Source: Nitrosomonadales bacterium (GTDB lineage: Bacteria; Pseudomonadota; Gammaproteobacteria; Burkholderiales; Gallionellaceae). Taken from it: DNA of 36,857 bases. The stretch's first letter is position 1. Each line of letters opens with the position of its first letter. The stretch covers positions 1 through 36,857 of the forward strand of contig JAHFRC010000014.1 in the NCBI GenBank assembly GCA_023259015.1, written 5' to 3'. Below are positions 14,464 through 32,256 of this stretch, in pieces. The notes beneath the pieces are model-generated. The model searched no databases. It worked only from the letters and a program-made list of their open reading frames with translations, and had not been told where the DNA came from. Made by a program: the position numbers and the translations under genes.

Positions 14464-14838
14464 TCAAGGGTGGCCGGGGTGCACCCATTCTTCCAAAACG
14501 TCATGCAGTTGCATGAACTGGAAAGATTTGTCGAGAAAGCAATCAACTCCGGCGCGCTTGCAGCGCTCGAGGTAAAATTTTTCGGAATAGTGGGTCAACA
14601 CCATGACCTTGATCCAGGCATGGCGCTTCTTGATGTTTTCCAGCACATCCATTCCCGATCCGGATTGCAGGAGGAGATCTAGGATCACGGCATCAGGCAA
14701 CAGTGCGTCGATTTGTTCGATCGCATCCTGCGCGTTCATGGAATGGCCAACCACCCTGATTTCCGGAATATCAGACAGCACAGATTGCAGGTTTTCATCC
14801 ACCGCTGCTGAATTATCCACGACAATTATGTCCATCAA
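14464..14838 (-). CDS. Stand-alone receiver (response regulator) domain protein
   Basis: CheY-like fold: MDIIVVDNSAAVDENL...DAVILDLLLQSGSGMDVL...VMVLTHYSEKFYLERCKRAGVDCFLDKS; no output domain. Confidence 0.88.
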   Translation of the reverse strand: MMDIIVVDNSAAVDENLQSVLSDIPEIRVVGHSMNAQDAIEQIDALLPDAVILDLLLQSGSGMDVLENIKKRHAWIKVMVLTHYSEKFYLERCKRAGVDCFLDKSFQFMQLHDVLEEWVHPGHP

Positions 14839-14880
14839 TCCACTCCCTTTATTTCGACGCGCCAGGCTACAAGATACACT

Positions 14881-14995
14881 GTGTAATGATGCTTCATCAC
14901 TCGTGGATTGGGTATCGGCGTCTGTCTGATTTTAATGTAAGGAACAGGGAAATTTTGCCGTCAGTATTTGCCTGACAAGGAAAAAAGCGCGATGC
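14881..14995 (-). repeat. Copy A of a duplicated upstream/promoter module, 5' of the receiver gene
   Basis: Gapless alignment to 17275..17389, about 75/100 identical by hand count; contains two TCrGtrTtTGyCTGA-like motifs 46 bp apart. Confidence 0.65.
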
Positions 14996-15205: not shown

Positions 15206-16372
15206 TCACATTTTCTGTTCCGGTTCTCCTTGTTTGGGAAACAGCACCCACATCCGCCCTTGCTGTTTCATCTTCCCCGCCTGCTCTGCGGCATGCGCGC
15301 CAAAACCCCAAAAGAAATCCGCGCGCACCGCGCCCCTGATTGCGCCGCCGGTATCCTGCGCCAGCATCAGGCGGTTGAGCGGGGTGTTATTGTTGGGATA
15401 GGTGGTGGAGAGGAATACCGGCGCGCCGAGCGGGACGGTGCGCGCATCCACCGCCAGGCTGTATTCGTCGGTGAGCGGCACTCCCAGCGCGCCCAGCGGC
15501 GCAGACAAACCATTCGGCAACTCGCGGAAAAAAACATAGCTTGGGTTTTGCGCGAGCAATGCGCCGAGTTTATCCGGATGCTGTTCCGCCCATGCCTTTA
15601 TGCCCTGCATGGAGGCTTCTTCCAGCTTGAGCTCGCCCATCTCGACCAGTTTTTTGCCGATTGAAACGTAGGGGTAGCCATTCTGGTCGGCGTAGCCGAC
15701 TTTCACCATGCCGCCATCCGGCAATTCGATGCGCCCGGAACCCTGGATTTGCAGGAAAAACAATTCGACTGCATTGTCCACCCAGAACAGCTCGCGCCCC
15801 TTGATTGATGCGGTTCCGGAATCAATTTCCGCGCGGCTGTAGTAGGGCACCACACGCTTGCCTTGCAGGCGTCCGCGCAAGCGCAGGTCCTTGAGTTGCG
15901 GGTAGGCTTCGCCCAGATCGATTGTAAGCAGGTCATCCGGCGCGGCGTAGAGCGGGTAGCGGAATTGCGCGGTTTTGGAACGGCTGCCCTTGAGCAACGG
16001 TTCGTAATAGCCGGTGATCATTCCCTGTTCGCTGCCGTCCGGGTTGAACACCTGATAGGGCGTAAACCATGTTTCATAAAATTCGTGCAATGCGGTGTTG
16101 TTGCCTGTGCCCAATTGTTCGGCGCGAGCACATACCTCGCTCCAGTTCGGTTTATTTTTCAGCGCGCGGCAGCTTTGCAAAAACGCGGGCCAGGCTGGCG
16201 TGAGATCAAGCGTCTGCCAATCCGGCAGCATCTCCCACTTGCTCACGGAAAAAAGCTTGGCAGGAGCGGTAACCGGCAACGCAACAACGGGCGGTTTGGG
16301 TGGCGCAACACAGGCGACAAGCAGCAGGCTCAGCCCGATGGCCAGCCAATTCTTTTTTGCTTCAAACATCAT
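15206..16372 (-). CDS. mltA: Membrane-bound lytic murein transglycosylase A
   Basis: MltA/3D domain sequence (GMITGYYEPLLKGSR...IQGSGRIELPDGGMVKVGYADQNGYPYVSIGKKLVE...GGAIRGAVRADFFWGFG); lipobox LLVAC. Confidence 0.94.
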   Translation of the reverse strand: MMFEAKKNWLAIGLSLLLVACVAPPKPPVVALPVTAPAKLFSVSKWEMLPDWQTLDLTPAWPAFLQSCRALKNKPNWSEVCARAEQLGTGNNTALHEFYETWFTPYQVFNPDGSEQGMITGYYEPLLKGSRSKTAQFRYPLYAAPDDLLTIDLGEAYPQLKDLRLRGRLQGKRVVPYYSRAEIDSGTASIKGRELFWVDNAVELFFLQIQGSGRIELPDGGMVKVGYADQNGYPYVSIGKKLVEMGELKLEEASMQGIKAWAEQHPDKLGALLAQNPSYVFFRELPNGLSAPLGALGVPLTDEYSLAVDARTVPLGAPVFLSTTYPNNNTPLNRLMLAQDTGGAIRGAVRADFFWGFGAHAAEQAGKMKQQGRMWVLFPKQGEPEQKM

Positions 16373-16974
16373 GCTTTTTCCTTGTGCAATTCAATCAAGC
16401 GGAACCAGCCGCGCGCCAGCACAGGCTGATCCGATATTACATACATCCCCGGAACCGCTTCCAGCACATCTTCGAATACCACATCCAGGCGCGTCGCCAA
16501 CTGCCCGGACAGGGGACTCAGGCTGCGCCGCAGCCAGGCGCGCTCGCCACGGCGCAAAAATTTGTCGAACAGCAGTATGTGCCCACCCGGCTTGAGCACA
16601 CGCGCAGACTCCACCATGCAGCGCTGCGGTTGCGGCACTACCGCAACAATGAGGTGCAACACCACATAGTCGAAACTTGCATCCGCGAATGGCAATGCCA
16701 TGCTGTCGCCCTGCACCATCTGCATGTGCAGGTTGCCTGCCCTTGGCCGCGCCCGTGCCAGCATCGCACCGGTCAGGTCGAGTGCGGTGTAATCGTGGTG
16801 CGGCGGGAGGAAGGGAAAATCCAGCCCGGTGCCGGCGCCGCTGAGCAACACATGTTTGCGTTCATGCTGCACCAGTGAACTTAAGCTGCGCCGCCTGATA
16901 TTGGCTGCGATGCCGCGATCCAGAACAGCATCGTAGAATGGGGCGATGAACCGGTAACTGGTTTTTAGCGACAT
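16369..16974 (-). CDS. Class I SAM-dependent methyltransferase
   Basis: VLLSGAGTGLDFPFLP, YTALDLTGAML, DYVVLHLIVAVV; ATGA overlap with mltA. Confidence 0.85.
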   Translation of the reverse strand: MSLKTSYRFIAPFYDAVLDRGIAANIRRRSLSSLVQHERKHVLLSGAGTGLDFPFLPPHHDYTALDLTGAMLARARPRAGNLHMQMVQGDSMALPFADASFDYVVLHLIVAVVPQPQRCMVESARVLKPGGHILLFDKFLRRGERAWLRRSLSPLSGQLATRLDVVFEDVLEAVPGMYVISDQPVLARGWFRLIELHKEKA

Positions 16975-17167: not shown

Positions 17168-17199
17168 AAAAAAAGCCCCTGACCCGGGAGGGCAGGGGC
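17168..17199 (-). terminator. Rho-independent terminator of candidate sRNA
   Basis: GCCCCTGCCCTCCCGGGTCAGGGGC followed by TTTTTTT on the minus strand. Confidence 0.75.
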
Positions 17200-17275
17200 A
17201 AAAGTCTTAACAACGGAGGAGAAGGGGGGATGTTGTTAAGATGCTACTTCGAGGCTCTGGGTTACGAAGCCTCAG
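17168..17275 (-). ncRNA. Candidate small RNA with C/U-rich anti-SD-like loop and intrinsic terminator
   Basis: Minus-strand hairpins: GAGGCT..AGCCTC (17251..17273), CTTAACAAC..GTTGTTAAG (17206..17240) with loop ATCCCCCCTTCTCCTCC, and GCCCCTG..CAGGGGC (17175..17199) followed by 7 U. Possible -10 TATCAT (17280..17285) and -35 TGCACA (17303..17308), 17-bp spacer. Confidence 0.6.
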
Positions 17276-17389
17276 TGAAATGATATTTCAATGCGCGTGA
17301 ATTGTGCATCGGTGTTTGTCTGATTGTTGTGTAGGAAGCAGAGAAATGTTGTTGTCGGTGTTTGCCTGACAAAGCATGAAGTGTGATGG
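17275..17389 (-). repeat. Copy B of the duplicated upstream/promoter module, 5' of the candidate sRNA
   Basis: Same alignment; motifs TCGGTGTTTGTCTGA and TCGGTGTTTGCCTGA (plus strand) 46 bp apart. Confidence 0.65.
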
Positions 17390-31768: not shown

Positions 31769-32144
31769 TTATATTTTCCTGCGGCTTGTTGCAGGCTGCT
31801 CGCCATGCCATACCGTAACGGCCAAGCCGTTACTCGTTTTAAATTCATGGCCTCGTGTGGGCAACGGTTTTTTCAATTTATACATGGCAGTTATTATTGC
31901 ATAACGGTGTGCTTGAAGAGTTAACTGCAAGAGCTGGAAGTTGAATCTTGCAGCGTAGATTCTGACTCTTCATCCCAAGTTCAACATAACAATTCCCGCA
32001 AGCCTATGCATCGCAAACATTGGCAGCATCCGCCCTTTACGGCATAATTCGCCCTGCCGTTCAGATCAAGGTGAATGTGTGCCAGAAAGCGCCGCCAAAG
32101 GCCCAACACTCGCAACCAAGCTCAAGGAACCATTAAGGCGGACA

Positions 32145-32222
32145 AATTCGGTGAGTGCTGTTTAACAGCCGCCGACGGAGCACACGACGCAAGCTACAAT
32201 CTCTCAGGCAACAGATAGAGAT
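32145..32222 (+). promoter_or_regulatory. Glycine riboswitch aptamer (divergent)
   Basis: GGTGAGTGCTG...CAGCCGCCGACGGAGCAC...ACAATCTCTCAGGCAACAGATAGAG resembles the gcvT aptamer core (GCCGAAGGAGCAA ... CTCTCAGGCAAAAGGACAGAG), directly upstream of gcvT. Confidence 0.8.
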
Positions 32223-32224
32223 GT

Positions 32225-32256
32225 GGCGCAGCACGAAACCGTGCTGCGCCTTTTTT
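32225..32256 (+). terminator. Intrinsic terminator of the riboswitch expression platform
   Basis: GGCGCAGCACGaaacCGTGCTGCGCCTTTTTT. Confidence 0.9.

Follow-up and report, generated by a model that had tools for sequence, protein, structure and literature searches.

A predicted Gallionellaceae small RNA with a C/U-rich, anti-Shine-Dalgarno-like loop as a divergent relative of anti-hemB under a distinct promoter element

Anti-hemB (Rfam RF02837; Burkholderia RNA 7 or ncS04) is a small RNA (sRNA) that is expressed in B. cenocepacia, is 105 nt long and reportedly binds Hfq, and overexpression of ncS27, a Betaproteobacteria toxic small RNA (BTSR, RF02278), attenuates growth (PMC5688073). NmsR of Neisseria has three stem-loops with UC-rich tracts and represses mRNAs at the Shine-Dalgarno (SD) sequence (PMC5362039), and NfeR1/ar14 represses by base-pairing where translation begins (PMC10746234). 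The RNA described here lies in a window of 36,857 bp, the whole stretch of DNA that was analysed, and appears to be a distant relative of a known RNA family, itself unlisted in Rfam and with a promoter class of its own. The source assembly belongs to the Gallionellaceae and comprises 1.79 Mb in 94 contigs at 73% completeness. The source organism is a freshwater bacterium; its family includes iron oxidisers, and post-transcriptional control in the family seems little described, a literature search on the topic having given no result.

The predicted transcript of 106 nt occupies positions 17168..17273 of the minus strand and is supported by its fold, a covariance model and orthologues. Hairpin 1 (17251..17273), GAGGCUUCGUAACCCAGAGCCUC, has a stem of the GGCUUCG..AGAGCC type and lacks an anti-SD tract, which anti-hemB carries at this position. 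Hairpin 2 (17205..17241) is closed by a stem of UCUUAACAAC (17241-17232) and GUUGUUAAGA (17214-17205) around the 17-nt, C/U-rich loop AUCCCCCCUUCUCCUCC (17215..17231), the presumed anti-SD seed. Hairpin 3 (17168..17199) is a GC-rich intrinsic terminator, GCCCCUG..CAGGGGC (17199-17175), followed by seven U residues (17174-17168). An earlier note on this DNA had proposed three consecutive minus-strand hairpins, a 17-nt pyrimidine-rich middle loop and a last, GC-rich terminator hairpin with 7 U, all of which we found in place; the middle stem that it gave as a perfect 9 bp is indeed perfect but one pair longer, at ten pairs. The folding energy of the 106-nt RNA was -40.6 kcal/mol. Dinucleotide shuffles gave -23.0 +/- 3.3, none of the 200 matching the RNA (z -5.4), and the fold thus exceeds chance. 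Both the minimum-energy and the centroid structure leave AUCCCCCCUUCUCCUCC wholly unpaired. A protein-coding reading was rejected, the RNA having neither an ATG nor a conserved frame, and the statement that no ORF accounts for the region holds, as no conserved ORF overlaps the RNA.

A covariance model, R2, was built from the window RNA, a second copy in its own genome (G000) and the orthologues in G003 (contig C176; same genus) and G099 (contig C18; another genus). R2 matched 69 of 159 Gallionellaceae genomes at E <= 0.001. The window RNA itself scores 102 bits within a branch of 86-110 bits that comprises G000 (two copies), G003:C176, G099 (two copies) and G124:C184; G000:C48 and G003:C229 score 52-57 bits, and about 85 more matches, anti-hemB copies among them, lie at 30-48 bits. 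A DNA similarity search of 61 genomes (the own genome and 60 relatives) returned the second own-genome copy and copies in nine others. This second copy of the window-type sRNA, L002 (G000:C29:19699-19807), is 79% identical over hairpins 2-3 and lacks the R1 promoter described below; G099:C67 and G124:C184 are its probable counterparts.

Pairing was assessed in an alignment of 51 distinct sequences (A5), which was fitted to the model, so that the counts that follow lean toward the structure. In this alignment 91.5% of cells pair, falling to 24-68% with the partner slid, and helix 2 of the family shows two-sided changes in 9 of 11 pairs with 95% of cells paired. The terminator hairpin is also kept among homologues. 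Homologues devoid of compensatory stem changes and of a conserved C-rich loop had been named beforehand as grounds for giving up the sRNA; the comparison was made and the proposal survived it, with two-sided compensatory changes at 20 of 25 pairs (10.7 +/- 1.4 in shuffles) and a loop that stays C/U-rich. Covarying hairpins, a conserved terminator, a promoter kept in three genomes and the C/U-rich loop together support the proposed minus-strand sRNA gene, which on this comparative evidence appears to be real.

Throughout the family the hairpin 2 loops are C/U-rich and G-poor. CUCC is present in 26 of the 51 loops, where letter shuffles give 11.4, and CUCCC in 20, where they give 3.6, the loops being related sequences and hence dependent observations. 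The CUCCUCC heptamer to which the earlier note drew attention varies, although the C/U-rich character around it is conserved: the loop of the nearest orthologue, in G003, is GCCCCCCUG, with CCCCCC, no CUCC and a less perfect hairpin 2 stem, that of the G099 orthologue contains CCCUCCUC, and that of the second own-genome copy contains CCCCCCUU. The conserved feature is a C/U-rich loop capable of pairing with ribosome-binding sites rich in purines, rather than one heptamer. With an unpaired anti-SD-like tract lying within a conserved structure, the RNA has one of the features of the functional class of anti-SD trans-acting sRNAs.

Upstream of the sRNA we identified a conserved promoter element of 108 bp, R1 (17267..17374, minus strand; 84 bits, E 1.5e-25), copies of which were first found by searching the upstream DNA against genomes of the genus. 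R1 is built of tandem palindromes, TGTCAG-N7-CTGACA, at constant spacing to the -10; 19 aligned copies follow the order TGTCAGGCAAACACTGACA, about 26 bp, ATCAGRCAAACACCGAT, about 23 bp and a CATTAT-like -10, with almost constant length. On the minus strand of the window, alignment A2 places putative operator site 1, the imperfect palindrome TTGTCAGGCAAACACCGACAA, at 17352..17372 (near -89), putative operator site 2, ATCAGACAAACACCGAT, at 17308..17324 (near -43) and, together with a promoter scan, the -10 hexamer TATCAT at 17280..17285, the site centres being reckoned from a start at 17273. The same 108-bp element precedes the sRNA in G000, in G003:C176 and, in the other genus, in G099:C18, the orthologues with this promoter being loci L006 and L259. 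The earlier note missed R1 and cited a -10/-35 pair with 17-bp spacing instead; the TATCAT -10 and a TGCACA -35 do exist, but chance alone would give 0.8 pairs of this kind in the region, and a plain sigma-70 scan gave nothing beyond a weak pair, as often as chance predicts. R1, at 17374-17267, is the stronger promoter evidence, and its geometry suggests an activator touching RNA polymerase.

The R1 profile was found in at least 40 of the 159 Gallionellaceae genomes, with at least 22 copies each in G100 and G116. The element sits upstream of genes and is oriented toward them. A reading of R1 as a MITE or REP element was dropped because the internal geometry does not vary between copies, which lie upstream of genes and face them.

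A second R1 copy in the window (14867..14979, minus strand; 83 bits, E 3.5e-25) stands before a gene for a single-domain response regulator (14464..14838, minus strand; Pfam Response_reg, 1.1e-19). Three loci, L263 (G070:C52), L281 (G087:C104) and L218 (G100:C6), place a further conserved RNA type behind R1, in which CCCYUCCYRGGCGCAAYGCCUGGG is followed by a GGGGCAG..CUGCCCC terminator and an unpaired CCCYUCCY tract precedes the two hairpins; for L263 and L281, the two loci scanned, no Rfam family was among the matches listed. Another R1-preceded, sRNA-like locus, L158 (G016:C21, minus strand, downstream of 8814), is structurally unrelated and has a long terminator hairpin whose loop contains CUCCUCCUCCC, with an anti-hemB copy about 1.1 kb away on the opposite strand.

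Among the genes behind R1, Pfam identified those for single-domain response regulators, a PAS protein, a LonB-like protease, a ShlB transporter, cytochrome cd1, a dihaem cytochrome and a DUF6600 protein; visual inspection alone pointed to Hsp20, cold-shock and pilin-like proteins. The Gallionellaceae may possess an uncharacterised activator-controlled regulon, with tandem TGTCAG-N7-CTGACA / ATCAG-N7-CCGAT sites, that couples protein genes to anti-SD sRNAs and under which at least three structurally unrelated sRNA types with unpaired C-rich tracts (the window RNA included) would have been placed independently. Its protein genes would encode receiver proteins, PAS proteins, cytochrome cd1 and other cytochromes, and proteases or chaperones, with about 22 copies of the element per genome at most. 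Taken as a whole, we judge this proposal to be evenly balanced between right and wrong.

Apart from the sRNA, the window contains a glycine riboswitch aptamer (32138-32228, plus strand) that scores 32.8 bits, just above the Rfam cut-off, and an ispD gene that is 82% identical to ispD of Gallionellaceae bacterium BIN13. Linkage of the sRNA to ispD was rejected: none of 80 named ispD loci had an RNA of this type upstream of the gene. The placement is therefore not ancestral to ispD, and the neighbourhood is incidental. On the other side, about 190 bp separate the terminator from the downstream start codon of a methyltransferase gene on the same strand (16369-16974, minus), a placement that would suit a transcription attenuator, or a 5' leader, for that gene. 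We consider either role highly improbable, since the gene downstream of the window-type RNA differs between genomes (a lipocalin gene in G003, a convergent ORF in G099), alternative antiterminator pairing is not evident and the RNA matches no known riboswitch. Because the flanking genes differ, the sRNA seems rather to move as a unit of its own.

The reading we favour, and regard as probable, is that of a free-standing, trans-acting sRNA of about 106 nt, a divergent anti-hemB-like branch, which is induced by an activator and represses mRNAs by occlusion of their ribosome-binding sites. Structure, compensatory conservation, the shared promoter and DNA similarity to anti-hemB copies can be read from the sequence itself, and from these we infer the steps that would follow. 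A putative activator would bind both tandem palindromes, whose centres lie near -89 and -43, and bring RNA polymerase to a weak -10, and the transcript would end at the intrinsic terminator with its U7 tract. The unpaired loop of hairpin 2 would then pair with the SD regions of several mRNAs and block ribosome entry, probably with the help of Hfq. Occlusion is proposed because studied RNAs of like build (NmsR, NfeR1/ar14) act in this way, and the anti-SD reading of the hairpin 2 loop is likely. Of four genomes in the genus, three encode Hfq; no hfq gene was found in the own genome, which is 73% complete.

Searching the own genome for full-length complements of the loop returned only the sRNA gene itself and no gene target, complements with 2-3 mismatches numbered two, barely above the one for the reversed control, and a pairing scan of the window genes, with crudely chosen start codons, gave generic SD pairing only. 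That these searches gave no specific target, that exact loop sequences vary and that the hairpin 2 stem is conserved beyond the needs of pairing (core pairs identical in 42-47 of 51 sequences) are all points in favour of a sponge or protein-binding decoy, in which the C/U loop would engage Hfq, another sRNA or a stem-binding protein instead of repressing mRNAs and the near-invariant GUCUUAAC/GUUAAGAC stem would be the functional part. However, the loops keep CUCC/UCCC far above shuffles, the three unrelated sRNA types behind R1 all have unpaired C-rich tracts, and look-alikes that have been studied experimentally repress via such tracts (NmsR, PMC5362039; NfeR1, PMC10746234), which makes a decoy distinctly unlikely and mRNA repression the reading that we retain.

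Neither the RNA nor its close surroundings gave a match at the gathering threshold of any Rfam family. The best sub-threshold match was to ar14 (RF02344; 26.2 bits, cut-off 58.8), and scores of 21.2 bits for BTSR (cut-off 50), 17.6 bits for anti-hemB (cut-off 49.5) and 14.9 bits for NmsRb (Neisseria NmsR/RcoF, RF02877; cut-off 52) were also obtained. Anti-hemB is near-universal among the relatives, with matches above the cut-off in 52 of 61 genomes. Six of the loci found by DNA similarity exceed its cut-off, and the relatives that adjoin engB/hemB are Rfam anti-hemB, the engB side having been assigned from reading the flanks. The window RNA could on these grounds be a true member of a known family (anti-hemB, BTSR or ar14) that merely scores low, with nothing new about it: its three-hairpin layout and terminator match those of Gallionellaceae anti-hemB copies, and the RF02837-positive loci L003, L004, L005 and L007 have DNA similarity to it and score 27-45 bits with R2. 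Against this stand the low scores for all three families, the lack of any Rfam match at E <= 0.1 for the six other side-branch loci, the different sequence and loop of hairpin 1, and the presence in G003 of both a proper anti-hemB (C208) and the window-RNA orthologue (C176), from which it follows that the two are paralogues. We therefore think simple membership of a listed family unlikely; the window RNA appears instead to be a paralogous, sub-threshold and divergent side branch of anti-hemB-like sRNAs, with the anti-SD tract in hairpin 2 and not in hairpin 1.

Anti-hemB-like RNAs would accordingly form a multi-copy group in the Gallionellaceae, in which the seed has moved between hairpins and which is missed by the present Rfam model. 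R1 gives the sRNA a regulatory context of two-component and PAS signalling, nitrite/cytochrome and stress genes, supplies a list of co-regulated genes and a searchable operator, and offers a way of testing whether one regulator repeatedly has anti-SD sRNAs as its output.

Set beside the described systems, the window RNA shares with NmsR/RcoF three stem-loops, a UC-rich loop in the second of them and sibling copies, whereas NmsR occurs in tandem copies and has another sequence and promoter control. With ar14/NfeR1 it has in common three hairpins and anti-SD motifs in unpaired regions, but ar14 carries CCUCCUCCC in all three hairpins; this motif is absent from the window RNA, in which the C/U tract is mainly confined to one 17-nt loop, and as ar14 comes from a different class of bacteria the resemblance is likely convergent. 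The betaproteobacterial toxic sRNA family, which the earlier note had suggested, is likewise betaproteobacterial, with C/U-rich anti-SD tracts and a strong terminator; membership failed on the score given above and on architecture, BTSR having two hairpins with a leading UGUCUCCU, and RF02278 was undetected in the 13 Gallionellaceae genomes searched. The closest known family appears to be anti-hemB, which has the same hairpin-hairpin-terminator architecture with a GC-rich third hairpin and U tract, similar C/U-rich loops, and above-cut-off Gallionellaceae copies that resemble hairpins 2-3 of the window RNA at the DNA level. The window RNA differs from anti-hemB in a GGCUUCG..CGAAGCC-like hairpin 1 that has the loop region UUCGUAACCCAGA in place of the UUCUCCUCCCUGAG loop, in the position of its anti-SD tract in hairpin 2, in its location away from engB/hemB with ispD and a methyltransferase gene as neighbours, and in its placement under the R1 promoter element.
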